Assembly: GCA_016870275.1 (NCBI GenBank)
Contig: VGBZ01000017.1
Span: 1-46,844 of the forward strand
From: Actinomycetota bacterium
GTDB lineage: Bacteria > Actinomycetota > Acidimicrobiia > Acidimicrobiales > Microtrichaceae
Direction of reading: 5' to 3'
Length of the DNA: 46,844 nucleotides
Shown here: positions 33,953 through 46,844 of the stretch, in pieces
How the letters are laid out: every line of letters starts with the position of its first letter
How positions within the stretch are numbered: the first letter of the stretch is position 1
The notes under the pieces: generated by a model
What the model was told of the DNA's origin: nothing
Database searches by the model: none
The model's input: the letters and a program-made list of their open reading frames with translations, nothing else
Translations under genes and position numbers: made by a program

Positions 33953-34534
33953 TCAGCTCAGGGTGAACGCCGCCTCACGGGCATCTGCGTTGTTGAAGAG
34001 GCTGTTGTTGGTCACCCGCACGTAGCAGGTCGTGTTCTTCTCGACCCCGGCCGGTGCGACGTCGGCAGTGGCGAAGCAGCCCCAGTCCAGATCACCCGAG
34101 GGCTCACGACCCCGGAAGATCTGCACCACCGTCGAGCCGCTGCCCGTGGCGGTGGCGTTCGGGTTCAGCGACGACAGGGGCGCACAGTCCTGCCCCGGGC
34201 TGAACGACGGGTTGCTCGTGACCTTCCGACAGATGTCGACGTACATGAGCTTGCCCGGGGTCTGGCCGCTCCAGGTGAACACGACGGGCTTCTCGCAGCC
34301 GCCGGTCACCCCCATCACCGGATTCTCGGCCAGGACCGCATCACCCGGCGGCACCGTCGACGGAAGCGGCGGCAACGGGAACGTCGGGCACGGAATGGTC
34401 GTCGTGGTGGTCGTGCTCGTGGTGGTCGTCGTCGTCACGGGTGGAGGCGGTGGCATCACGCACGACGCAGCGACGACCACGACGGTGGCGAGCACGACGA
34501 ACGCAGCGGTCCGGTGACGGTTGATGTGCGACAT
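33953..34534 (-). CDS. Lipoprotein with a four-cysteine secreted domain (paralogue A)
   Basis: The 193-residue protein has a lipoprotein signal (lipobox AASC), a Pro5/Thr-rich linker and a domain (about 75-193) that I cannot name. It shares a long series of identities with the protein at 42929-43519: WSGQxPxKLxYVDICxK, PGQDCAPLSSxNP, TGSGxT, FRGxxPSGD, WGCFAxADVAPAG, TTCYVRVTNxSLFNN. Four Cys are conserved and probably form two disulfides. GGAGGA lies 6 bases before ATG 34534. It is 73 bases after the glycosyltransferase gene that ends the exosortase operon, so it may be co-expressed. It lacks the C-terminal anchor of its paralogue and is instead lipid-anchored. Function unknown. Confidence 0.75.
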   Translation of the reverse strand: MSHINRHRTAAFVVLATVVVVAASCVMPPPPPVTTTTTTSTTTTTTIPCPTFPLPPLPSTVPPGDAVLAENPVMGVTGGCEKPVVFTWSGQTPGKLMYVDICRKVTSNPSFSPGQDCAPLSSLNPNATATGSGSTVVQIFRGREPSGDLDWGCFATADVAPAGVEKNTTCYVRVTNNSLFNNADAREAAFTLS

Positions 34535-34607: not shown

Positions 34608-36116
34608 TCAGCGTGACCGTCCGGCCAACCCCGGGTGAGCGCTCGGGCCGGCCGGGACCCCGGCGACCGCCTCATCAGCGGCCTCGTCGACGAGCGTCAG
34701 GCCGTGGGTCGTCTTCTCCCAGTGGCTCGGCGCCGTCACCAGTTGCACGGCCGCCCGGAGCGCCGCGATCGACATGAGCACCCAGTAGAGCGGCGACAGC
34801 ACGGCGGCGGCGAGCAGGTCGGGACGTCGGACGACGCGGGCGGTCACGACCGACACGTAGACGACCGACAGGTTGCCGATCACCCACACTGCTGCGGCCA
34901 GGTAGTACGCCCACCCCGGGTACATCGCCTGGACGAACGCCGCCCGAGTGGTGATCCACACCAGGGCGAGCCCCCAGAACCAGAGGTTCATGACGGCGAG
35001 CAGCGGCGTGCAGCCGACGAACATCACGAAGTGGAACACGCCCCGCCAGCCCAGGCCGTGCACGAGCGACCGGGGGTGGCGCCAGGCCACCTGGAACGTC
35101 TGCAGGTAGCCCTTGTACCAACGGCTCCGCTGCTTGACCCAGTTGAGGACGTCGGTGTTGGGCTCCTCCATGGTCACCGAGTCCAGGATCCCGATCCGCC
35201 ATCCGCGCCGCTGCAGCCGGATCCCCAGGTCGCAGTCCTCCGTGACGTTCCACGGGTCCCACCCGCCGACCTCGTCGATCGCCCAGCGTCGGAAGTGGTT
35301 GCTCGTCCCCCCCAACGGGACCGTGGCGTCGGCCAGGACCAGACCGGGCAGGTACAGGTGGAACCAGGTGGCGTACTCGGTGGTGAACCAGCGGGTGAGC
35401 AGGTTGCGGTGTCCGCCGTAGAAGAAGAGGCGGGCCTGCAGGCACACGACCTCGTCGCCGGCGCGACGGAACGCCACGGCCGCCCGCCGGAGCTGCAACG
35501 GTTCCGGGTGGTCCTCGGCGTCGTAGATCGTCACCAGGTCGCCGTGGGCGAATCGCAACCCGAAGTCGAGCGCCCTCGGCTTCGTGCGCGGCTCACCGGG
35601 CGGTACGAGCAGCACCCGCACGGGCAGGTCGGCGTCGATGGCGCGGGCGGCGTCGATGGTGTCGTCGTCGTCCGCCTCCAGGAGCAACACCACGTCCAGC
35701 CGGTCCCGGGGGTACTCGAGACGTTCGAGGGCCTCGAGCAGTCCGGGCAGGATCTCGGGCTCGCCGTAGGCGGGGATGAGCACGGAGTAGACGGGGAGCT
35801 CCTCGTCGGGAACGGCCCGCGCCTCGGCGTCCGAGACGTGCATCGCCGGATCGTGTCGCAGCGCCCGTCGGACCAGGGAGATCCGGTGCCAGACGGTCAC
35901 GGTGTAGAGGACCGACGCGAGCGTGGTGAACGTGACGGCGACCGCGACCGGAGCAAGGGCGGTCAGGCCGACGAGCACCACGGCCGCGACCACCCAGCGC
36001 CACGGACGTGACCGGGTGACGATGGGGCGGGCCGTTGCGCCCGGGTTCCGCTGTTCGACCTCGGCGAGCGCGAGCGCCAGCTGCCATTCCGGGTCGTCGA
36101 CCTCGTCGACCCTCAC
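34608..36116 (-). CDS. GT2 family membrane glycosyltransferase (processive synthase type)
   Basis: The 502-residue protein has two N-terminal membrane helices (about 40-75), a GT2 catalytic domain with PVYSVLIPAYGE (108-119), the DxD-type DAED (199-202), TED (292-294) and QRSRW (329-333), and three or four C-terminal helices. The D, D, D, QxxRW set marks processive beta-glycan synthases (cellulose/curdlan/beta-mannan-like). The polymer is not predictable. The GTG start overlaps the exosortase stop by 4 bases, so it is the last gene of that operon. Polysaccharide synthesis beside an exosortase is the classical arrangement in Gram-negatives (EPS loci). Confidence 0.9.
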   Translation of the reverse strand: MRVDEVDDPEWQLALALAEVEQRNPGATARPIVTRSRPWRWVVAAVVLVGLTALAPVAVAVTFTTLASVLYTVTVWHRISLVRRALRHDPAMHVSDAEARAVPDEELPVYSVLIPAYGEPEILPGLLEALERLEYPRDRLDVVLLLEADDDDTIDAARAIDADLPVRVLLVPPGEPRTKPRALDFGLRFAHGDLVTIYDAEDHPEPLQLRRAAVAFRRAGDEVVCLQARLFFYGGHRNLLTRWFTTEYATWFHLYLPGLVLADATVPLGGTSNHFRRWAIDEVGGWDPWNVTEDCDLGIRLQRRGWRIGILDSVTMEEPNTDVLNWVKQRSRWYKGYLQTFQVAWRHPRSLVHGLGWRGVFHFVMFVGCTPLLAVMNLWFWGLALVWITTRAAFVQAMYPGWAYYLAAAVWVIGNLSVVYVSVVTARVVRRPDLLAAAVLSPLYWVLMSIAALRAAVQLVTAPSHWEKTTHGLTLVDEAADEAVAGVPAGPSAHPGLAGRSR

Positions 36117-37825
36117 CCGCCCGGCTCCCGTGGTGGCGGCAGCGACGCAGCCTGCTCGGTTGCGGCCGACACGACGCGCCGACCGAAGGTGACGATGAAG
36201 CTGCGCAGGGCGATCTCACGTTCGCTCAGGTCGCTGCCGGCACGACCCTGCACGAACTCGTCCGCGCTGAACGCGAACTGGTCGGCGACGTCCTCGGTGA
36301 CCTCGGGTGCGACCAGCCGCGCACTGTCGACCTCGTTGAGCAGCAGCACGACCCGCTCGTAGCGGATCCGGTCGCCCTGTCGAACGGCCCAGATCCAGTA
36401 GAGGGTCGTCCACTTCAACCCGTTCGCAGGGTCCTGCCAGCGCAGAACGGTTCCGGTGACGCCGCTGCCCAGGTCGACGCGCCGGACGTCCTGCATGCCG
36501 TAGCCGTGGAACTGGTAGCAGGCCTCCAGGCCGAAGTCGCTGAACGACTGCAGGTTGGAGGTGTTGATGACGTCGGCCAGCACCGGCACGTCGCTGCGCA
36601 GGTCGGTCGTGCCGAACCCCCGGTAGCTGAAGCGGACCCAGGTCGAGTCCTCACCGAAGAACCGCTTGCCGTTCGCGAAGGTTGCGACGGGTTCGGCCCG
36701 GAAGCCGTCCAGGTCCGCACCGGATCGGGCGAAGCCGGCCAGTCGGGGCGTACCGACCGACGAGGCGATCGGGTCGTAGCGGGTGAGTCCGTGGTCGAAC
36801 ACACCGGCGAGCAGCGCCACGGGGAGCAGGACGAGCAGGGTCCGCCGGACGGTCGGCACGGCCCGCAGGACGGTGGCGGTCCGGCTCGGCCCGGTGCGCT
36901 GCGGCAGCTGCAGTCCGAACCGGTGGGCGGCGAGCACCATCAGCAGCACGCCGACGTTGAAGGACACGAGCCCGACGCCCGGATGGAGCACATCGATGGA
37001 CGCGGTCTCGCCTGCGAACCGTCCCACGAAGATGATCAGCAGGATCCGGAGGATGTTGAGCACCACCATCAGGACCGACCCGGCCGCCAGCCAGGCGGCC
37101 TTGCGCCACCGGCTGCCACGCAGGACGAGTGAGACGGCCCCGGCGAGCAGCAGGAACCCGACGAGCCCGTTCGCACCCGAGCAGGCCGAGGCGATCTGCA
37201 CCCGGAACCCCTGCTCACCGTGCGGGATGATGAACGAGGTGTCGTCGCCCTGGACCGCCTCGGCCAGCGGCACCACCGACAGGATGATCCGCACCGCCCC
37301 GGCGGTCAGGTCGCTCAGGTGGTCGAGCAGCGACTGGACGGCCCAGCGGGACGGCATGGGCCACGCCAGGAACAGGAACGCCACGGCGACCTTGGTCCGC
37401 CACAGCATCCGCACGCCGAACAGCAGCGTCACCACCCCGGCCACGAAGAACGGCATGGTGAGCAGGTCGATCCGCCACAGCCAGTAGACGACCGACAGGC
37501 GCGGTGGCAGCAGGACCAACGCGACCAGGGCGACGACGATCAGCGGGACCCCGACGATCCGGTCGACCATGCGGTCGTGGATCTCGGGTTCCCCGGCCAC
37601 GGGTCGGGACAGCACGTAGCCCAACCCGATGCTGATCAGGGGAACCAGGCCCAGGTACGCGAGCGGGGTGTCGACGGTGATGCCGCGGAGCAGTGACCAC
37701 AACGACGTGTGGTAGGCGACGACGACGATCGCCAGCCCGGCCGCGGTGCGCAGTCCGACGCTGCGCACGTCACGGTCGGACCATCCACGGGTCGGGGTGC
37801 GCAGCGAGGCGGTGGGGGCGGTCAC
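36113..37825 (-). CDS. Exosortase/archaeosortase-family transpeptidase with EpsI-like C-terminal domain
   Basis: The 570-residue protein has about eight to ten membrane helices in the first 310 residues with the exosortase catalytic set: Cys215 in ASACSGANGLVGF, Arg260 in LNILRILLIIF and His281 in VLHPGVGLVSFN, plus the FLAWPMPSRW loop. The C-terminal 240 residues form a soluble domain (DVINTSNLQSF, ACYQFHGYGMQ) resembling EpsI. Exosortases cut PEP-CTERM-like tails and transfer the protein to a surface acceptor; they are typical of Gram-negatives and rarer in actinobacteria. GTG 37825 overlaps the stop of the gene for a Thr-rich anchored protein (GTGA), a likely substrate. The frame is open to 38437 upstream but without helices of the family. 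Confidence 0.9.
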   Translation of the reverse strand: MTAPTASLRTPTRGWSDRDVRSVGLRTAAGLAIVVVAYHTSLWSLLRGITVDTPLAYLGLVPLISIGLGYVLSRPVAGEPEIHDRMVDRIVGVPLIVVALVALVLLPPRLSVVYWLWRIDLLTMPFFVAGVVTLLFGVRMLWRTKVAVAFLFLAWPMPSRWAVQSLLDHLSDLTAGAVRIILSVVPLAEAVQGDDTSFIIPHGEQGFRVQIASACSGANGLVGFLLLAGAVSLVLRGSRWRKAAWLAAGSVLMVVLNILRILLIIFVGRFAGETASIDVLHPGVGLVSFNVGVLLMVLAAHRFGLQLPQRTGPSRTATVLRAVPTVRRTLLVLLPVALLAGVFDHGLTRYDPIASSVGTPRLAGFARSGADLDGFRAEPVATFANGKRFFGEDSTWVRFSYRGFGTTDLRSDVPVLADVINTSNLQSFSDFGLEACYQFHGYGMQDVRRVDLGSGVTGTVLRWQDPANGLKWTTLYWIWAVRQGDRIRYERVVLLLNEVDSARLVAPEVTEDVADQFAFSADEFVQGRAGSDLSEREIALRSFIVTFGRRVVSAATEQAASLPPPREPGG

Positions 37826-38973
37826 GGGGTTCCTCCGGGCACGGGCCCACCGCCGACCCCGGCGGACCGGCGGCGACGGACGAGCAGGGCGAGCGCGGCG
37901 CCGACGACCACCACCGCCGAGATCGGCAGCAGGGCGGTGAGCGGGCTCTCGGACACGACGGGCGGCGGGAGCGGGACGGTGGTGGTGGGCGTGCCCGGGG
38001 CGACGATGCCGAGCGACGCCAGCTGCGTCGGCGCTCCCTGCGCACCGACGCAGCTCTGGACGACCGGCTGTCCGCCCACGGTCCGGGTGAACGACACGGA
38101 GTCGAACTGCACGACGATGCTGCCCCCGGCGGGCGACGAGACGGTGAACGTCCCGGCCAGGAAGTCGTCGCCGCCGTCCGGGATCGGCACCACCGCACCG
38201 GCGGCGAGCGGGAGCGGATTCGAGGTCTCGAGCTGCAGGGGCGGCGCTCCGGTTCCGACCGCCGACAACCGGACGGTCTGGGCCAGGTCGTCCCGGAGTG
38301 CCTCGCCGAGCAGGTTGGGCGGCCCGAGCAGGCCCACGAGGACGGGCAGGTTGGTGCCGGTGGGCACGCCGGTGAGCGTGGAGACACCGACCACCGCAAT
38401 CACGGGCACGGACCCGGGCTGGTTCGTCACCGAGCACGCCAGCTGGAGGGTCACCGTGCGGGACTGGACCTGGACGGACGGCGGCACGGTGGTGGTGGTC
38501 GTCGTCGACGGAACCGTCGTGGGCGACGTGGCGGGCGGCACCGTCGTCGGCGGCGTGGTCGTGGGCACGGGTGGCGGCGTGGTCGTCGGCGGTGTGACCG
38601 GGTCGGGCGGCGGCACCACCAGGTCGAGCTGGGTGAACGACTCGCCGAGCACCTCGGTGGCGGCGCCGTCCTCGAAACCGACCCCCGCCAGCGACTCACC
38701 CTCCGAGAACCCGGCGTCCTCCTGGACCCCCAGCACCTCGGCAGCGGCGGCGGCGGACCCGCTATCCGGCGTGGAGGGCGGCGTCACGGCGTCGCCGGGT
38801 GCGGTGGTCGTGGTGGACGGGGCCGTGGTCGTCGTGGTCGTCGCCCGGGCCGCCCGCTCCTCGGCGGGTGACCCGCCGCCGAGCCGCGTCACGGCGACGA
38901 CGGCCACGAGCGCGACCAGCGGGCCCAGGACGAGCCAGAGCGTCCGCTGTCGGAGGACCGGGGGGACGCGCAT
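37822..38973 (-). CDS. Thr/Pro-rich exported protein with exosortase-like C-terminal signal
   Basis: The 383-residue protein has an N-terminal signal anchor (WLVLGPLVALVAVVAVTRLGG), long Thr/Pro linkers, a beta-rich middle (VQVQSRTVTLQLAC, LPVLVGLLG, GSIVVQFDSVSFTR) and a C-terminal tripartite tail: SESPLTALLP, hydrophobic helix, RRRR. The tail resembles that of the protein at 42929-43519 (PEAPVAILLP, helix, RR). It lies directly before the exosortase gene with a 4-base overlap and shares one base (TGATG) with the preceding gene, so it is probably the main cargo of this system. No known domain was recognised. Confidence 0.75.
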   Translation of the reverse strand: MRVPPVLRQRTLWLVLGPLVALVAVVAVTRLGGGSPAEERAARATTTTTTAPSTTTTAPGDAVTPPSTPDSGSAAAAAEVLGVQEDAGFSEGESLAGVGFEDGAATEVLGESFTQLDLVVPPPDPVTPPTTTPPPVPTTTPPTTVPPATSPTTVPSTTTTTTVPPSVQVQSRTVTLQLACSVTNQPGSVPVIAVVGVSTLTGVPTGTNLPVLVGLLGPPNLLGEALRDDLAQTVRLSAVGTGAPPLQLETSNPLPLAAGAVVPIPDGGDDFLAGTFTVSSPAGGSIVVQFDSVSFTRTVGGQPVVQSCVGAQGAPTQLASLGIVAPGTPTTTVPLPPPVVSESPLTALLPISAVVVVGAALALLVRRRRSAGVGGGPVPGGTP

Positions 38974-41045
38974 CAGTCGAGGAACCCCTCGTCGGGCGTC
39001 GGCCGTGGTTCGCCGCGCGGGTTCAGCACCCGGTACAGGGCGTACCGGCCCGAGGTGTCGTCGTCGCCGCCCCAGGTCCGCACGCGCTCGAAGCCGGCGT
39101 CCTGGTCGGTGAGCAGCCCGGGATGTGCGGCGACGACCGCATCGCCGGTGGATGCCGGGACCCTCAACAGCACGTAACGGACGCCGAAGGTGGCCGGGTC
39201 CGACACGACCGCCTCGAAGTCCCGGTCCGATGGGATGATGAACACCGACGGTTCGGCCGACGCCGACACGACGGCGAACGTGGACGACGCGTCGGTCAGG
39301 ATCGACCCGGCGGTGGCGTCCGGGACGTCGTCCAGGTCGGCGGCGACCGCGGCGGCCCGGCCCAGGACGGACCTCGACGCCTCGATCCGCTCACCGGTGG
39401 CGCCAGCCACGATCGCGTCCACGGTCGAGCGGTCGTCGGCCGACCCGAGGTCGCTGTCCAGCACCACCGTCCACGACAGCGCCAGCCCCGGCACGAGCGA
39501 CAGCACGGCGAGCACCCGCAGCATCCGTGACCCCCCGATCGCACCGCCCGAAACGGCGAGCAGCGCTGCGAGCAGCGCCGACAGCACCACCGCGCCGACG
39601 ACGTAGCGGAACCACGGGAACGTGTCGCCCCGTCCGGCGAGCAGGAGCTGCAGGACCAGCGGCGATCCGACGATCGCTGCGGCGACGCTCGCCCGACGGG
39701 CCGTGCGCCCACCCAGCCAGAGCGCCACCAGCAGCATCGGGACGAGCAGCGGCGCGGCCACCACGAGCTGGCGCAGGTAGAACCCGACCCGTCCGGGCAC
39801 GCTGGTGTCCCCGATGATCGACTCGATCGCCCCGGCGCCGTCCCGCACGAGCGCCGCGTTGCCGTAGTCGGAGGTCAGCTGCGCCAGCGGCTCCCCGACG
39901 ATCACGTACGACACGAGCGACCAACCGAGCACACAGGCGGTGACCGGGAACGCCAGGATCGACAGGTCCAGCACCACGGCCCGGAGCCGGCGCCAGGTCG
40001 CCGAACGAGACGGCCCGACGGTCCCGCGGGTCCATCCGTCGTCCGCCGGCCGCCGTTGGGCCGACACGACGACCACGAACGCCGCAGCGGCCAGGATCGA
40101 TGCCGCGGTCTCGTACCGGGTCAGGTAGGCCGCACCCAGCGCCGCTCCGCCCAACACGAGACCGCCGAGGTCGTCGCGCTCGGCCCACCGGGCGAGCGAC
40201 CGCACGGCCAGCACGAGCAGGACCATCCAGCACGCCTCGCTCATCCCGTTCGCCCCGTACAACAGGACCAGCGGACTGGCCAGGGTGAGGGCCGCCACCG
40301 ACCACCGGGCCCAGCGGGGGCTGCCCGAGGTGCGGGCCCAGTCGACGACCTGGGCGAGCAGCAGACCGGTGCAGATCGCCGAGACGGTCGTGGCTGCGAT
40401 CGACGCCGCGGTGAGCTCCGGCACCCAGGACCGGAGCGCCACGAACGGCACCTGGAACAGGGTCGGGAACGGACCCCAGATGAACCCGATGGATTCGGGG
40501 TGCGGGTCACGGCCCGCCACGACGGCGAGGGCCCCCTGCACGCGGGAGATCGCATCTGCCGGGATGACGCCGCCGCGTGCGGCCGCCACCCAGCCGAGCA
40601 CCATCAGCACGGCGGTGGTCAGCCCGCCGACCACGACCGTCTCGACGTGACGTGTGGACCGCTGCCCCGAGGCCCGGCGGCGGAGTTCGGCGACACGGAC
40701 CCGGACCAGGTGGTCGGCCTCCAACACCGCCGGGTGCGACTCGTCGGCGACGACGACGTCGTCGACCGAGATCCGCGGGATGGGCACGCCACCGGCGGCG
40801 GCCAGCGTGCGGGCCGCCGCCACGGACCGACCGGCGATCACGTCGGCCCGGTCCTCGGCGTCACGCAGGTCCTCGACGAGCGAGTCCAACCGGTCCCACC
40901 GGCGCTCCAGCTCGTCGGCACCGGTCCGGAGGGTCGCAGCCAGTAGCGGCGTTGTTGCGACCGCGGCCGTCCCGGCCGGATGGTCGTCCGGATGGACGGC
41001 AACCGGGTCGAGCAGCTCCCGCTCGTCGATCGACACCGCGTTCAC
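38973..41045 (-). CDS. Polytopic membrane glycosyltransferase-like protein (GT39/GT-C type)
   Basis: The 690-residue protein has a soluble N-terminal part (1-130) with a coiled-coil-like ELERRWDRLDSLVEDLRDAEDRADV, then about ten to twelve membrane helices (135-530) and an extracytoplasmic C-terminal domain. The first loop with FIWGPFPTLFQVPF and the GANGMSEACWMVLL segment recall lipid-linked sugar transferases of the GT-C fold, but no single motif proves it. GTG 41045 overlaps the stop of the coiled-coil gene (GTGA). In the operon it could add sugars to the sorted surface proteins or to their acceptor. Confidence 0.7.
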   Translation of the reverse strand: MNAVSIDERELLDPVAVHPDDHPAGTAAVATTPLLAATLRTGADELERRWDRLDSLVEDLRDAEDRADVIAGRSVAAARTLAAAGGVPIPRISVDDVVVADESHPAVLEADHLVRVRVAELRRRASGQRSTRHVETVVVGGLTTAVLMVLGWVAAARGGVIPADAISRVQGALAVVAGRDPHPESIGFIWGPFPTLFQVPFVALRSWVPELTAASIAATTVSAICTGLLLAQVVDWARTSGSPRWARWSVAALTLASPLVLLYGANGMSEACWMVLLVLAVRSLARWAERDDLGGLVLGGAALGAAYLTRYETAASILAAAAFVVVVSAQRRPADDGWTRGTVGPSRSATWRRLRAVVLDLSILAFPVTACVLGWSLVSYVIVGEPLAQLTSDYGNAALVRDGAGAIESIIGDTSVPGRVGFYLRQLVVAAPLLVPMLLVALWLGGRTARRASVAAAIVGSPLVLQLLLAGRGDTFPWFRYVVGAVVLSALLAALLAVSGGAIGGSRMLRVLAVLSLVPGLALSWTVVLDSDLGSADDRSTVDAIVAGATGERIEASRSVLGRAAAVAADLDDVPDATAGSILTDASSTFAVVSASAEPSVFIIPSDRDFEAVVSDPATFGVRYVLLRVPASTGDAVVAAHPGLLTDQDAGFERVRTWGGDDDTSGRYALYRVLNPRGEPRPTPDEGFLD

Positions 41046-41350
41046 CCGTCACCCGACCCGGCGGCGCCCGCCGGGTCGAGCCGGTCGGCGAGCGCCCGGA
41101 CCTCAGCGAGCGCGGTCCGCAGTTCGGAGCGGACGGCTCGCTGCAGGGCGGTCAGCTCGGCCATGGTGGCCTGCAGTTCGGCCCGGTGGTGCTCGATCAG
41201 CGCCACCGTCTCGGCAGCCAGGCGGGCGAGCTCCTCGGCGTCCACGACCCGGACCTCCGAGGGCGGATCGGAGACCGGCTGGACGGCCGTCGGGGCCCCG
41301 TCGGCCGACCACGGCGCCGTCCCGGCCGGTGGGGTGGTCTGTCCGCTCAT
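41042..41350 (-). CDS. Small coiled-coil protein heading the exosortase operon
   Basis: The 102-residue protein has a Pro/Ala-rich N-terminus and a single long amphipathic helix (about 40-95) made of EELARLAAETVALIEHH and repeated AEL/ALADRL heptads. There is no signal peptide or membrane helix. It is the first gene of the five-gene overlapping operon and may interact with the coiled-coil N-terminus of the next protein. The ATG at 41350 is chosen because the sequence before it is not protein-like; the ribosome-binding site (GAGG) is distant. Confidence 0.65.
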   Translation of the reverse strand: MSGQTTPPAGTAPWSADGAPTAVQPVSDPPSEVRVVDAEELARLAAETVALIEHHRAELQATMAELTALQRAVRSELRTALAEVRALADRLDPAGAAGSGDG

Positions 41351-41611: not shown

Positions 41612-42838
41612 TCAGGGCGCCGGGAAGATCTTGCAGACGCCGTTCGACCGCTCGGCCGCCGGCACCCGGATGAACCCGGTCAGCGTGTAGCGGTTGCCCA
41701 GCTCCACGAAGTTCGAGTTGCCCGTGTAGTCGTTGGTCGTGTGGTTGGCCGAGTTCTTGCAGAGGAACTCGGTGTACTCCCGCACCGCACCCGGCTTGCC
41801 ACCCGAGGCGACGGAGGCGTCCGGCGTGTAGACCGCCGGCGAACCGGCCACGGTCGCACCCCACACGTCGTCCGACCCTGCGGCCGACGGCGTGGCGTCG
41901 ACCTTCTTGGTCACGTGGAAGATGAACCGGGTGAACGGGTAGGTGTTGTTGCTGATGGTCGTGGAGCCCGGAGCGATGCCGTTGACCGTCCACTGCTGGG
42001 CGGAACCCCGCAGGTACGGGAATGCCCGGAAGCTGGCCCAGCTCATCCACCACACCGCGTTGTTGATGTTGTTGATGGTGGTCGTCGATGCCTCCACCGG
42101 CTTCGAGTCGTTCTCGAAGGGGAAGAACGCCGCAGCCGGACCGGCTCCGTCGGTGTCCACCTTCTTGACGCAGGTCCCGGCGTTCGGGTCGAAGCCGATG
42201 AAGCCCCGGAACGTGGCCTGCGTACCCGAGGCGGAGTTCATGCCGATGGGCTCGATCACCTGTCCGGCGTCGGCCGGATTGCCGGTGATCTGGTCCCAGG
42301 TGGTGATGGAGCAGTTGTAGATGCCCTGGATCTGCGCCAGCGTCAGGTTGCCCGGCGACCGGGTGCCGTAGGTGACGACGGACAGGCCGTCCTTGCCGAT
42401 GGCCCAGAAGTTGGCCGTGGACTCACCCGAGGAGCCTGGGCCACGGGACGAGCGGGCCATGTCGAGCTCACCGGCGATGAGCTGCTTGACACCGGTGGAC
42501 GATCCCGTCGGGAACAGCTGGGAGTTCACGTCGTGGTCCCAGTTGCCCTTGATGTCGGTCTGCGGGTTGGTGGTCGAGCCGTCGAAGCCGACGCACTTCC
42601 GCGTGTTGCCGGCCGGGGTGGTCGGGAACCCGTTGATCGTCTCGCAGCCCTTGGCCTGGTTGTAGACGACGTCGAATTCCTGGTTCACCCGGTAGGTGGT
42701 GTCGGACCCGCCCGAGACCAGCAGGTCCGGGAGGTCGTCGTAGCCGGACGGCTCCGGCGCCAGGGCGCCGGCGGAGCCGATGCTCGTGAGGAGGGTCGCT
42801 CCGGCGATGGCGCCGGCGACCAGGGACTTGAACTTCAT
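41612..42838 (-). CDS. PstS-like secreted phosphate-binding-type protein
   Basis: The 408-residue protein has a Sec signal peptide (1-26) and a type 2 periplasmic-binding fold with PstS-like landmarks: LLVSGGSDTTYRVNQEF near the N-terminus, DMARSSRGPG, FWAIGKDGLSVVTYG, LTLAQIQGIYNCSITTWDQI, IGMNSASGTQATFRGFIG and YPFTRFIFHVTKK. The SGT(Q/A) motif normally contacts phosphate. Three or four Cys may form disulfides. There is no lipobox and no membrane anchor, so it is secreted or held by partners. AGGGAG lies 6 bases before the ATG. No Pst permease genes are nearby, so it may serve a structural or sensing role in the surface system. Confidence 0.82.
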   Translation of the reverse strand: MKFKSLVAGAIAGATLLTSIGSAGALAPEPSGYDDLPDLLVSGGSDTTYRVNQEFDVVYNQAKGCETINGFPTTPAGNTRKCVGFDGSTTNPQTDIKGNWDHDVNSQLFPTGSSTGVKQLIAGELDMARSSRGPGSSGESTANFWAIGKDGLSVVTYGTRSPGNLTLAQIQGIYNCSITTWDQITGNPADAGQVIEPIGMNSASGTQATFRGFIGFDPNAGTCVKKVDTDGAGPAAAFFPFENDSKPVEASTTTINNINNAVWWMSWASFRAFPYLRGSAQQWTVNGIAPGSTTISNNTYPFTRFIFHVTKKVDATPSAAGSDDVWGATVAGSPAVYTPDASVASGGKPGAVREYTEFLCKNSANHTTNDYTGNSNFVELGNRYTLTGFIRVPAAERSNGVCKIFPAP

Positions 42839-42928: not shown

Positions 42929-43519
42929 TCAGGCCAGCGCCTGCTGACGGCGCATGAACACGAAGCCGCCGATCAGCACGAGCGCGCCGACCACCGGCAG
43001 GAGGATGGCCACGGGGGCCTCGGGGATCACGCCGCCGGACTCGACGATCGTGAAGGGGATGTCGGCGGCCTGGTTGTTGTTGAACAGGCTGTCGTTGGTG
43101 ACCCGCACGTAGCAGGTCGTGAACTTCTGGATGCCCGCCGGGGCGACGTCGGCGTCCGCGAAGCAGCCCCAGGGCTGGTCACCCGAGGGGTCCGGGCCAC
43201 GGAAGACCGTGTACGCCGTGGTGCCGCTCCCGGTCGGGGTGGCGAACGGGTTGATGCTCGACAGCGGGGCGCAGTCCTGGCCCGGGTTGAACGTGGGGTC
43301 GGTCGACAGCTTCTTGCAGATGTCGACGTAGATCAGCTTGTTGGGGGCCTGGCCGGACCAGTTGACCGTGACGGGCGCCTCGGTCTGGCCGGGGGCGAAG
43401 GCCACCGGGTTCGGGTTGACCGTACCGGTCGGACCCTGGGCGCCGGCCGGTGCGGCCACCGACAGGCTCAGGAGGAGCACCCCGGCGACAGCCGCAGCAC
43501 CCAGCACTCGCTTCATCAT
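42929..43519 (-). CDS. Four-cysteine secreted domain protein with PEAP-type C-terminal signal (paralogue B)
   Basis: The 196-residue protein has a Sec signal peptide (1-27), the same four-cysteine domain as the lipoprotein at 33953-34534 (about 40-155) and a tripartite C-terminus: GGVIPEAPVAILLP, helix, FMRRQQ. This resembles PEP-CTERM/archaeosortase signals and, at E-x-P-x-x-x-L-L-P, the tail of the exosortase-linked protein at 37822-38973. It is therefore a candidate exosortase substrate. ATG 43519 or 43516 can serve as start; AAAGG lies 9 bases before the first. A good promoter precedes it and a hairpin follows it, so it can form its own transcript, probably an abundant surface protein. 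Confidence 0.78.
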   Translation of the reverse strand: MMKRVLGAAAVAGVLLLSLSVAAPAGAQGPTGTVNPNPVAFAPGQTEAPVTVNWSGQAPNKLIYVDICKKLSTDPTFNPGQDCAPLSSINPFATPTGSGTTAYTVFRGPDPSGDQPWGCFADADVAPAGIQKFTTCYVRVTNDSLFNNNQAADIPFTIVESGGVIPEAPVAILLPVVGALVLIGGFVFMRRQQALA

Positions 43520-43775: not shown

Positions 43776-44777
43776 TCAGTACGTGACCGGGAGGAACGAG
43801 TTCAGGTTGAACAGGACCAGCACGACGCCGATGGCGACGACCGGTCCGCCGATCACGACGGCCACGCCCAGGCTGTAGCGCCGCCGCAGGTCCCGGGCGG
43901 CGAACGCCCCGGCGACGGCCACCATCGCCCCCGCCAGCAACAGGACGGCACCGGACGCCGGACGCTCGTCGAAGGAACCCACGTCCTCGGAGTCCGACAC
44001 CGGCACCCGTGCGTCCTCGGGCACCTCGGGCTGCGGCCCGGATGCGGACGCCGTGACCACGACGCGCTCGCTCGAGAACGGACCGCCGGCGCTGGTCACC
44101 AGGGTCAGCCGCGTCGGCCCGTCGGCCACCATGACCTCGGTCTCGCTGCCGTCCACCTTGGTCACCTCGGTCACCTTGTACACGTAGACGCGGTCGTCCC
44201 GGGTCCGGACGAAGATCCGGTTCCCGCCGACCAGCTGGTCGATCTGGCCGAACGGATAGCTCCACAGCGTCGAGTGACCCAGGATCACGGTGTTGCCCTG
44301 TCCGGGCGGGGCGCTCCCCTCCCGCCAGCCGGGTCCGCCCCGCAGCTGCACCGGTTCCGCACCGCGGGTCACGACCTGGTCCATCCCCAGGATCGGGATC
44401 TGCAGGAGCAGCGCCGCCTCACCGACGGCCACCTCGGTGGCCGGCTCCCGGTACTCGTCCCGGAGGTGCTGCTGACGGACGCTCGCCGACTCGGGCAGCA
44501 GGAACACGATGAGCAGTGCCAGGGCGAGCAGACCTCCCAGCACGGCCAGCACGACCACCCGTCCGCTTCGACCCCCGCCCGACGACCCGGCGGAGTCGGC
44601 GTCGTCGCCGGCCTCGGGATCGGTCGGCAGGGGATCGGTCGGCACGGGATCGGTCGGCACGGCGTCGCCCGGCGGGGCGTCGGGGTCCGGCCCGTACGAC
44701 GGCACGTCGAAGCCGTCCGGATCGTAGGCGGACGGCCATCCGGGAGCGTCGGGCGCTGCTGTGTCCTGCACGCTCAC
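43776..44777 (-). CDS. Sortase-fold membrane protein with catalytic Cys replaced by Ser
   Basis: The 333-residue protein has a Pro/Asp-rich cytoplasmic N-terminus with PTDP repeats (41-54), one membrane helix (73-95), a sortase-like beta barrel (115-245) and two or three C-terminal helices. Sortase landmarks are IPILGMDQVV, the catalytic His168 in NTVILGHS, and Arg238 in SSERVVVTAS. The TLxTC box reads TLVTS, with Ser229 (codon AGC) where the nucleophilic Cys should be. It may be an inactive scaffold, a Ser-dependent variant or carry a sequence error. The GTG start overlaps the preceding binding-protein gene (GTGA). Its operon partners end in membrane helices rather than LPxTG/LAxTG signals. 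Confidence 0.8.
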   Translation of the reverse strand: MSVQDTAAPDAPGWPSAYDPDGFDVPSYGPDPDAPPGDAVPTDPVPTDPLPTDPEAGDDADSAGSSGGGRSGRVVVLAVLGGLLALALLIVFLLPESASVRQQHLRDEYREPATEVAVGEAALLLQIPILGMDQVVTRGAEPVQLRGGPGWREGSAPPGQGNTVILGHSTLWSYPFGQIDQLVGGNRIFVRTRDDRVYVYKVTEVTKVDGSETEVMVADGPTRLTLVTSAGGPFSSERVVVTASASGPQPEVPEDARVPVSDSEDVGSFDERPASGAVLLLAGAMVAVAGAFAARDLRRRYSLGVAVVIGGPVVAIGVVLVLFNLNSFLPVTY

Positions 44778-46525
44778 CCGAAGCCGCTCCTGCGTTCGTA
44801 GAGCTTCCAGACGACCATGGCGAACAGCGCTCCCAGCCCCAGGGTCACGGCCCGGTCGAGCGGCGGCAGTGTCTGGCCGGGAATGGGCAGGGGCATCCGC
44901 CGGGACACCGCCGTGCCCGTCGCTCCGGTGGATGAACCTGCGGCACCCGACGAGGCAGCGGCATCGACCGCTCCACCCACCGCCGCCCCGGCGTCGAGCT
45001 GTTCACCGGCGACCTCGGCGGCCAGTTCGTCGAATCCGGCCGGGATGTCGGACGACCCCGTGTCGAACCCCGGATCGCTGAAGCCGGCGTCGAACCCGGC
45101 GTCGAAACCGGAGCCCGACCCCGCGTCCGTCGGGACGGGCGGCTCGGGGGTCGCCGGTCCGGTGCAGAGCTTCACCGGCGATCCGGTGAGCACGCCGCTC
45201 GGCACCCACGGGGTGCCGTCGTCGCTCGTCGAGACGGTCCCCTTGGCCGACGCGCAGTTCGACTCGACGATCCGGTCCGCGGCGGCCAACGCCTCGCTGA
45301 CCATCGCCGGGGTCAGTCGGCCGTCTCCCAGTTCGGCGGCCCGGACCTGACCCGCGGTGACCTGCAGGCGGATGAACGAGGCCGCCGCGTTGGCCTCGTC
45401 CGCGGTCAGTCCACTCGCCGGGACGTAGGCACGGTTCACCCAGGCGATCGGGTACGCGCCCTTCGCCGGGTTGGTCGCCGCCGCCAGCGGCTTCCCGCCG
45501 TCCAGCGCCACGGCCGCACTGATGCTGTCCGGGGTCGGTGACAACCACTCGCCGGCCGCGTTGCGGACCTGGGCCCGGAACAGGGGCACCCGCTCGGACG
45601 GCGGCTTGGCTGCGTTCAGCGCCACCGCCTCGGCGGCGGCACCGGTCGCAGCTGCGGCGATCGTGCCGCCGAGTGCGACCTCGCTGCCGGCCGGGTCCAA
45701 CCCGCCGAAGATCGTCGAGACGACGTTGTCCATCCCCTGCCGGGACGGGGTCAGGAACCCGGGCCACAACTCGCTGGGGACGTCCTCCGGGTCGCTGCCG
45801 GGTGTCGCTGCGAGCGCCGCCCGACGCTGCGCCCCGGCGGTGATCGCCACGTAGGCGTCCAGGTACTGGTTGAACGCGTCGCCGTCGCTGCGCACCAGCG
45901 GTCGGGCGCCTCGGATGGGCGGCACCAGCCGGTAGCCGTCGGGGAGGACCGGCCCCATGTCCCGGACGAAAGAGCCCGAGTTCCAGACGTTGTTGCCCAC
46001 GTAGAACGTCTCGACGAGCGACTCGCCGCCCAGCCGCAGGTCCGCCGTCAGCAGGATCCGGTCGGCCTGGGTGCACTCGACCAGCGGCTCACCGGTCTGC
46101 TCGTCGACCTCGTCGCACCGGGTCGGGAACAGGCCGATCTCCGGCACGAACCCGAACACCTCCAGACCGACCGCCTGCACCGGCGCCGAGACGACCCCGC
46201 GGCCCGACTGCTGCAGCGCCGCCCGCTGGGCGTCGGTCAGGTCGACCCCCGAGACGATCAGGTCCACCTCACCGTCCACGAACGACGCGCGGGCGTCCTG
46301 GGTGCCCGAGACGATGTACTCGATCGAACTCCGGCGCTTCGCCGTGTCGAGCTGCTGGATGTTCGCCAGCGCTGCGGGCACGACCTCAGCGGTGATGCGG
46401 GCGTTCAGCACCACCGGATCGGTGGTGGTACCGCCGGACTGCGCGGGCGCGACGACCGGCATGAACACCCATGCGACCGCCACCGCCGCTGCGGCCAGTC
46501 GGAGCACCAGACCACGGCGGGTCAT
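44774..46525 (-). CDS. PstS-like binding-fold protein with C-terminal membrane anchor
   Basis: The 583-residue protein has a signal peptide (1-29), a type 2 binding-protein-like region (about 35-460; RRSSIEYIVSGTQDARASF, GEVDLIVSGVDLTD, YPIAWVNRAYVPAS), a Gly/Asp/Phe-rich linker with FDAGFDAGF repeats, a long Ala/Ser stretch and a C-terminal helix (LDRAVTLGLGALFAMVVWKLYERR). It is thus a substrate-binding domain held away from the membrane on a stalk. Its ATG overlaps the stop of the preceding gene (ATGA) and its own stop overlaps the sortase-like gene. The ligand is unknown; similarity to PstS is by fold pattern only. Confidence 0.7.
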   Translation of the reverse strand: MTRRGLVLRLAAAAVAVAWVFMPVVAPAQSGGTTTDPVVLNARITAEVVPAALANIQQLDTAKRRSSIEYIVSGTQDARASFVDGEVDLIVSGVDLTDAQRAALQQSGRGVVSAPVQAVGLEVFGFVPEIGLFPTRCDEVDEQTGEPLVECTQADRILLTADLRLGGESLVETFYVGNNVWNSGSFVRDMGPVLPDGYRLVPPIRGARPLVRSDGDAFNQYLDAYVAITAGAQRRAALAATPGSDPEDVPSELWPGFLTPSRQGMDNVVSTIFGGLDPAGSEVALGGTIAAAATGAAAEAVALNAAKPPSERVPLFRAQVRNAAGEWLSPTPDSISAAVALDGGKPLAAATNPAKGAYPIAWVNRAYVPASGLTADEANAAASFIRLQVTAGQVRAAELGDGRLTPAMVSEALAAADRIVESNCASAKGTVSTSDDGTPWVPSGVLTGSPVKLCTGPATPEPPVPTDAGSGSGFDAGFDAGFSDPGFDTGSSDIPAGFDELAAEVAGEQLDAGAAVGGAVDAAASSGAAGSSTGATGTAVSRRMPLPIPGQTLPPLDRAVTLGLGALFAMVVWKLYERRSGFG

Positions 46526-46844
46526 CGCCGCGACACCGCCGCCCGACCGCCCTTGGCGGCGAACAGTCCGGCTGCGACCAGGGCCGCTCCCATCAGGAAC
46601 GTGAACAGCACGTCGCTGTTCTCGGGTCCGGCGCTGCCGGTCGCCCCGACAGCCGTCCCGCTGGGGCTCGCCGCGCCGAATCCGGCGGCGAACTCCTCGG
46701 CCAGTGCGGCCTCCTCGGCGCTCGCGGCGCTCGCACCCTCCACGGCACCCTCGGCGACGGCGCCGGCCTCACCGGCCACGGCGGTCTCACCGGCCACGGC
46801 GGTCTCACCGGCCACGGCGACCTCGGCGCCGGCGGCTCCGGCTG
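46522..46844 (-). CDS. C-terminus of Ala/Gly-rich membrane-anchored surface protein (partial)
   Basis: The frame is open to the window edge and shows the last 106 residues: three VAGETA-type hexapeptides, an Ala/Glu-rich stretch, GPENSDVLFTFLMGAALVAA as membrane helix and a basic end (KGGRAAVSRR). No LPxTG/LAxTG motif precedes the helix. The stop overlaps the start of the next gene (ATGA), so it is the first visible gene of the sortase-like operon. Confidence 0.7.
   Translation of the reverse strand, partial: AGAAGAEVAVAGETAVAGETAVAGEAGAVAEGAVEGASAASAEEAALAEEFAAGFGAASPSGTAVGATGSAGPENSDVLFTFLMGAALVAAGLFAAKGGRAAVSRR
46768..46821 (-). repeat. 18-bp tandem repeat coding VAGETA hexapeptides
   Basis: Three units of CTCACCGGCCACGGCGGT (plus strand; the last differs at its end) encode the hexapeptides of the partial anchored protein and may continue past the window. 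Confidence 0.85.

Follow-up and report, generated by a model that had tools for sequence, protein, structure and literature searches.

Why an actinobacterium should carry an exosortase is the question raised by contig VGBZ01000017.1 of assembly GCA_016870275.1 (Acidimicrobiia, Microtrichaceae), of which positions 1 to 46,844 were analysed and are called the window here. The host, of the Acidimicrobiales, presumably lives in fresh water. Passages of the 2006 description (PMC1569441) tie the exosortase/PEP-CTERM system to the outer membrane and leave the Actinomycetes without an example. The window holds five consecutive minus-strand genes that run from 41350 to 34608 with overlaps of 4, 1, 4 and 4 bases, which confirms the overlaps of 1-4 bases reported in an earlier note on this DNA:

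41042..41350, minus strand: small coiled-coil protein, first of the five genes (coiled coil judged by eye)
38973..41045, minus strand: GT-C-like (PMT_2) membrane glycosyltransferase, 690 amino acids (PMT_2 33.4 bits, cut-off 26.1)
37822..38973, minus strand: exported Thr/Pro-rich cargo protein, 383 amino acids, with an N-terminal hydrophobic segment and a C-terminal ExP tag
36113..37825, minus strand: exosortase, 570 amino acids, with Cys215, Arg260 and His281 and a C-terminal domain in which no EpsI could be recognised (model scores and alignment)
34608..36116, minus strand: GT2 membrane glycosyltransferase (PF13641 96.7 bits, cut-off 27)

The exosortase starts at 37825, and the 774-amino-acid open reading frame of the mechanical list has a false N-terminal extension. 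Pfam and NCBIfam scans put no family over its cut-off on the coiled-coil protein. The GT2 sequence contains DAED, TED and QxxRW strings, which we take to be motifs of the processive type. What is new, judging from the sequences, is the tripartite tag of the Thr-rich protein, common to a neocarzinostatin-like protein of the window and to a third protein encoded on another contig. We consider it fairly probable that a dedicated actinobacterial exosortase cuts the ExP tags of these few surface proteins and passes the proteins to a glycan or lipid acceptor.

The enzyme passes the superfamily cut-offs of PF09721 (87.1 bits, cut-off 25.7) and TIGR04178 (56.1 bits, cut-off 23), and no named Xrt subfamily lies over its cut-off among the models that it matches. 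Cys215 and Arg260 are invariant in all ten aligned rows (the window protein plus nine homologues that are 40-96% identical), and His281 is present in all nine rows long enough to include the position. The exosortase with these three residues that had been proposed for this gene, together with a search against family models, is thus upheld by significant matches and by the alignment, and we judge the enzyme to be a true member of the superfamily. The EpsI-like tail claimed in the same place was not recovered. EpsI models gave no match to the C-terminal part at E ≤ 0.1. Searched at E ≤ 10 in 14 genomes, 12 of them with an exosortase, PF11984 gave no match at the exosortase gene and three weak ones at other places. 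An hhalign comparison of the C-terminus with a single EpsI gave a probability of 0.1%, level with the controls (0.2% for a shuffled sequence, 0.1% for PstS), as opposed to 94.3% (E 1e-7) for the C-terminus of an exosortase from G499, a more distant genome of the phylum. A remote kinship to EpsI, of which one sequence was compared, may nevertheless exist. Solved structures searched by sequence with the exosortase alignment yielded nothing at E ≤ 1, and no plasmid record matches the enzyme. PF09721 is over its cut-off in 13 of 396 sampled genomes of the phylum, mostly through weak and partial matches; exosortase-like genes are rare in the phylum, yet not confined to the window's clade.

The tag consists of a (V)[PS]ExP motif, a hydrophobic segment and an arginine cluster. 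It occurs twice in the window, where an untagged relative of one of its carriers is also encoded:

37858..37968, minus strand: tag of the Thr-rich cargo, VVSESPLTALLPI, hydrophobic segment, RRRR (E 1.6e-15, itself a row of the profile)
42929..43519, minus strand: secreted neocarzinostatin-like protein, 196 amino acids, tagged; second predicted substrate
42935..43039, minus strand: tag of the neocarzinostatin-like protein, GVIPEAPVAILLPV, hydrophobic segment, RRQ (E 1.6e-16, itself a row of the profile)
33953..34534, minus strand: untagged paralogue of the neocarzinostatin-like protein (sequence comparison)

The two ends match, VVSESPLTALLPI in the cargo and VIPEAPVAILLPV in the neocarzinostatin-like protein each being followed by a hydrophobic stretch and arginines. 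The third tagged protein of the window genome is a 304-amino-acid frame with VIPEFP on contig C69. In this genome an 11-row profile, of which both window tags are rows, finds these two strongly and the C69 tag at E 3.7, and an 18-row profile, with the C69 tag among its rows, finds all three strongly. Strong third tags that are rows of neither profile were found in congeners (G001:C143, G002:C101, G003:C268, G004:C312 and G005:C111). Every one of 18 hand-chosen tags keeps the Glu and the second Pro of ExP. Because tagged and untagged paralogues occur, as the neocarzinostatin-like pair of the window and as a tandem pair in G355 (L118:12209-14884) that shares a globular domain and ends in PEIP, an ExP tag, in one copy and in LPRTG in the other, the tag, common to otherwise different proteins, can be described as a suffix. 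The tandem pair of G355 adjoins a Cys-less sortase and a PstB-like gene.

The earlier note had coupled the exosortase to one cargo-like gene and to glycan synthesis. The cargo-like gene and two glycosyltransferase-like genes are indeed there and recur, but the single cargo is incomplete, since the window encodes two tagged proteins and another contig of the genome a third. For the glycan-linked fibre that the note suggested, no evidence turned up. No NCBIfam or Pfam tail model was over its cut-off for the tailed proteins scanned (7 and 6), nor was any library tail model for the two window tags. The neocarzinostatin-like protein reaches 28.5 bits with NF040680 (cut-off 86). For its predicted model (predicted local distance difference test, pLDDT, 73.5), C-1027, neocarzinostatin and macromomycin are within the first ten PDB matches, which also include unrelated proteins and of which none is at E ≤ 0.001; solved structures searched by sequence gave nothing at E ≤ 1. 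In G013, two adjacent lamin-tail-domain proteins (L111:2990-5494) bear VPELP and VPEFP tags on a contig other than that of the exosortase. A protein of G149 (L122:5003-5890) ends in SPIPSFPMEGLP, a hydrophobic segment and RKRR; a weak exosortase-like match lies at a distance of about 1.6 kb, and the two are perhaps another enzyme-tag pair.

Gene order was compared over 14 exosortase loci (the window, L015-L025, L118 and L119), of which L119 ends within the exosortase and L023 begins just before it. The GT2 gene lies directly downstream of the exosortase in 12 of 13 visible loci, the exception being G036, where it is about 14 kb off; in G355 no gene fits between the two. A tagged gene lies directly upstream in 10 of 13. 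In the neighbourhood comparison that had been suggested, the block recurs in relatives and is real, so that neither of the outcomes named in the note as refuting (no significant family match, genes never adjacent in related genomes) was seen, although five genes are not its full extent, for the recurring neighbourhood also includes phosphate-transport genes. In G499 (L210:5345-9173), a gene ending in VPDVP, a hydrophobic segment and RRTRR shares 4 bases with the next one, which encodes an exosortase whose C-terminal domain is that of the window enzyme; a glycosyltransferase-like open reading frame then follows.

Tag and enzyme also go together across genomes. Among 41 genomes (the window genome, G000, and 40 relatives), PF09721 is over its cut-off in 12, which comprise the whole genus (six genomes), a further five members of its family and one genome from a different family within the order. 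When the 11-row profile is used and strong means E<1e-8, a cut chosen after the list had been seen, 11 genomes have exosortase and tag, one has the exosortase only (G011), one the tag only (G024) and 28 have neither (Fisher p 4.4e-8); at the looser cut of E ≤ 0.1 the same profile gives some match in 27 of the 41. In a class sample of 395 genomes with tags taken at E ≤ 0.001, the corresponding numbers are 7, 4, 2 and 382 (p 4.1e-11), the two tag-only matches lacking the motif positions. Without the 5 genomes that supply profile rows, 2/6 stand against 2/384 (p 0.0012). The 18-row profile finds 19 strong tags (E ≤ 7.3e-10) in exactly 7 of the 395 genomes, the very genomes whose exosortase match is close to full length (in G400 a contig end cuts it). 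The next match below, at E 5.7e-5, starts at profile position 7 and scores 26 bits as compared with at least 41. At E ≤ 0.01 some match occurs in 73 of the 395, those below the top 19 being weak and, in nearly all of the rows displayed, lacking the motif positions. Applied to 19 chosen genomes, the profile finds 35 strong tags (E ≤ 6.3e-9) in 14, one to five per genome; the five without are G011, G271, G236, G149 and G102.

Taken together, gene order, tag and enzyme speak for an exosortase dedicated to a small set of substrates, and parts of PMC3237569 describe dedicated enzyme-target pairs for such sorting systems. Built on the enzyme family, the active-site residues, the shared tag, its co-occurrence with the enzyme, the gene order and the loss of the catalytic Cys from a neighbouring sortase (see below), all read from sequence, the route may be pictured as follows. 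The tagged proteins would be exported and halted in the membrane by their hydrophobic segment, and the exosortase would cut next to the motif with Cys215 as nucleophile, together with Arg260 and His281. The freed C-terminus would then be handed to an acceptor, presumably a membrane glycan or glycolipid. We infer cleavage near ExP from membership in the exosortase superfamily; for the transfer to a glycan or lipid we go by the adjacent GT2 gene and by the XrtG cassette as presented in parts of PMC12854382. Since GT2 and GT-C adjoin the exosortase, they suggest an acceptor of this kind or, alternatively, a role of GT-C in glycosylating the Thr-rich stalk of the cargo.

A number of observations weigh against this proposal. 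Its step to a glycan is a conjecture from neighbouring genes and analogy. The exosortase structure predicted from 7 sequences has many helices and, with a pLDDT of 40, was unreliable and dropped. In G009 the upstream cargo has the degenerate motif VDEVVV, and in G036 and G355 no tagged gene lies directly upstream; these two have tagged genes elsewhere on the exosortase contig. The p values overstate the association, as the genomes share descent and a single genus supplies six of the positives. In the class searches no more than 19 candidates were scored for each genome, so that weaker tags may be missed. Of the 7 genomes positive with the 18-row profile, 5 gave rows to it and the remaining two are congeners of G000, so that its matches in them are not independent. 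G024 (82% complete) has three strong tags and no exosortase was found in it; its phosphate-locus contig ends near the point where the exosortase block starts in its sister G013. G011 has the exosortase and no strong tag, on a contig that begins just before the exosortase. An exosortase fragment of 88.1 bits in G271, cut by a contig end, and weak matches over the cut-off in G236, G149 and G102 are likewise accompanied by no strong tag.

Among known systems, XrtA (EpsH)/PEP-CTERM resembles the window in its exosortase with Cys, Arg and His, its tag of motif, hydrophobic and basic parts and its polysaccharide-type neighbour genes, and XrtA is the best-scoring named model for the window exosortase (67.9 bits, cut-off 208; 8TM_EpsH 64.5, cut-off 105.55). 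It differs in that no EpsI was found for the window exosortase with models or with hhalign against one EpsI, and in that strong tags number one to five per genome here, the median reported for PEP-CTERM being 8 instances. An outer membrane is not expected in the window host. The PEP-CTERM model has one match in the window genome, at 13.7 (cut-off 16), which is none of its three tags. In 14 genomes it is over the cut-off at 5 places in 3 genomes, one of these places being a strong ExP tag, that of G002:C101, which passes narrowly with 17.0 bits (cut-off 16); the model is noisy, being over its cut-off in 2 of 14 control genomes.

The nearest Gram-positive analogue appears to be the XrtG/Firmicu-CTERM cassette of Lactiplantibacillus, for which parts of PMC12854382 give a tagged protein, an exosortase and two glycosyltransferases. 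The window has the same make-up, with the GT-C gene preceding the cargo here. On the other hand, the 18 models that match the window exosortase at E ≤ 0.1 do not include XrtG, GT2 reaches only 22.1 bits with the XrtG-associated TIGR03111 (cut-off 363.95), the tag is a different one, and the window block is linked to phosphate genes. The statement in the earlier note that exosortases normally belong to Gram-negative bacteria reflects the view of 2006 as worded in passages of PMC1569441, but this Gram-positive cassette has been published (PMC12854382). XrtP with its glycosyltransferase (NCBIfam NF053846) likewise combines an exosortase with a glycosyltransferase partner; at E ≤ 0.1 neither the window exosortase nor its GT2 neighbour matches an XrtP model, the frame beside the G499 exosortase matches NF053846 weakly (16.3 of 520 bits), and no paper on the XrtP of NF053846 was found. 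Archaeosortase A/PGF-CTERM shares superfamily and tag layout with the window system, according to parts of PMC3237569. The ArtA model gave no match to the window exosortase at E ≤ 0.1, and the sole archaeosortase match was ArtC with 14.1 bits.

No publication that deals with an exosortase from this group came up in our literature search; the superfamily survey of 2011-12 (PMC3256604) lies outside the coverage of that search and may describe actinobacterial members. Queries combining exosortase with Acidimicrobi- or with Ilumatobacter returned none, and in the extracts retrieved the only co-mention of PEP-CTERM and pst genes treats them apart. The system suggests that a group first reported to lack it has a dedicated means of attaching a small number of proteins to the cell surface, its neighbourhood uniting three predicted substrates with two glycosyltransferases. 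If true, the acceptor question for exosortases would become easier to test, given few substrates, no outer membrane to be expected and candidate acceptor genes next to the enzyme.

What such a surface structure might be for is indicated by the remaining genes of the neighbourhood:

41612..42838, minus strand: PstS-like phosphate-binding protein (PF12849 45.4 bits, cut-off 27; TIGR02136 70.1, under its cut-off of 206.6)
43776..44777, minus strand: sortase-fold protein, Ser229 replacing the catalytic Cys (PF04203 76.1 bits, cut-off 26.6)
44774..46525, minus strand: degenerate PstS-like protein with a C-terminal membrane segment (PF12849 13.8 bits, under the cut-off of 27)
46522..46842, minus strand: C-terminal end of a membrane-anchored PstS; the gene leaves the contig

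The last of these has a recurring C-terminal membrane segment after GPENSDV. On a contig of G001 the genes follow one another as tagged protein, neocarzinostatin-like protein, PstC, PstA, membrane-anchored PstS, PstS-like protein and sortase-fold protein; a second neocarzinostatin-like protein then starts, and the contig end precedes its tag. PstA and PstC are over their equivalog cut-offs in G001 (224.7, cut-off 193.45, and 268.5, cut-off 196.45) and in G009 (253.2 and 250.6). In the window genome they lie on C69 and are 92% and 88% identical to those of G001. Because C69 holds the first part of the locus up to PstS residue 432 and the window end holds residues 516-559, the two contigs probably adjoin, with no exact overlap found between them. 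The exosortase block shares a contig with PstS-like genes in G009 (there with PstC and PstA), G013 and G023, and in G036 with PstC, PstA and PstS in a rearranged order; the exosortase contig of G355 carries a PstB-like gene of 328.2 bits, just under the PstB equivalog cut-off of 343.2. The three tagged proteins of the window genome all have phosphate-transport genes as neighbours, and from this neighbourhood we take phosphate scavenging to be the probable role of the surface structure.

The sortase-fold protein resembles class E sortases in its sortase domain and differs from them in carrying Ser for the catalytic Cys; its score with the class E sortase model is 51.8, under the cut-off of 160. 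The Cys is kept in none of ten proteins (that of the window and nine orthologues), which have Ser instead, whereas 18 of 20 other sortases compared keep it. The G036 orthologue, assigned by position, also lacks His and Arg, and the neighbouring sortase of G355 lacks Cys and His. An order-wide search of 238 genomes, with six Cys-less proteins as query, gave a match in 174 and returned 30 loci, 20 without Cys (five of the query proteins are among these, and three of the 20 come from the window's genus) and 10 with Cys. A pst-type match lies within about 1.5 kb in 19 of the 20 Cys-less loci (PstB 11, PstC 1, PstS-like 7) as compared with none of the 10 Cys-bearing ones. This looks like an order-wide, Pst-linked family, and its members could possibly act as a scaffold of the phosphate locus. 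A tie to the exosortase was dropped, as the Cys-less sortase adjoins pst genes in exosortase-negative genomes too (G033, G058). The literature search on inactive sortases turned up Lactococcus pilus papers. The Pst-linked sortase without nucleophile is a second, independent puzzle.

Both puzzles could be joined in one tentative scheme, which we hold to be possible and on balance unlikely. In such a phosphate-scavenging sorting system of a presumably single-membraned bacterium, the Pst locus of this order would have gained a sortase that lost catalysis and now perhaps serves as a docking or scaffold subunit, and in the exosortase lineages ExP proteins encoded around that locus would be cut by the exosortase and joined to a GT2-made glycan, with neocarzinostatin-like and PstS proteins forming a phosphate-capturing surface layer.

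The proposal of a dedicated, tag-cutting exosortase has further to be set against explanations in which the enzyme leaves the tagged proteins alone. The C-terminal segments might be plain membrane anchors, while exosortase and GT2 make or export a polysaccharide. In fact, GT2 is a slightly more constant neighbour of the exosortase than the tagged gene (12/13 vs 10/13), EpsH was first named from an exopolysaccharide locus, as passages of PMC1569441 relate, and the anchor of the membrane-anchored PstS of the same locus has no ExP motif. Plain anchors, however, require no motif such as the invariant Glu and Pro of the ExP tags, and in the class sample strong tags go with the exosortase, which makes this a doubtful explanation.

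We regard it as more improbable still that the sortase cuts the tags in the way LPXTG-like tags are cut and that the exosortase has another job. The layout of the tags resembles LPXTG tails, the sortase-fold gene adjoins the tagged gene at 42929-43519, and some sortase-fold match, ordinary and Cys-less together, is present in 38 of the 41 genomes. Nevertheless, because the neighbouring protein lacks the catalytic Cys in all ten orthologues, where other sortases mostly keep it, it is unlikely to process tags, and it was dropped as the tag-cutting enzyme. Furthermore, Cys-bearing sortases occur also in genomes without a strong tag, for example G007, and G355 and G400 additionally have LPRTG or LPFTG tails, as if these served a working sortase.

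A functionless cassette, decayed or foreign, or an error of binning is a very improbable and largely refuted account of the locus: the relatives' genomes are metagenome assemblies, the spread is patchy (exosortase over the cut-off in 12 of 41) and an exosortase match in G595, of the same phylum, looks like contamination by a Gram-negative PEP-CTERM locus, but the gene order is repeated in the single-contig 4.66 Mb genome G009 and, within contig reach, in five congeners, and open frames and catalytic residues are retained at 40-96% identity. The strong match of G595 (L209), which is near XrtA and is adjoined by EpsI, PrsT and a PEP-CTERM tail over their cut-offs, was set aside as probable contamination.

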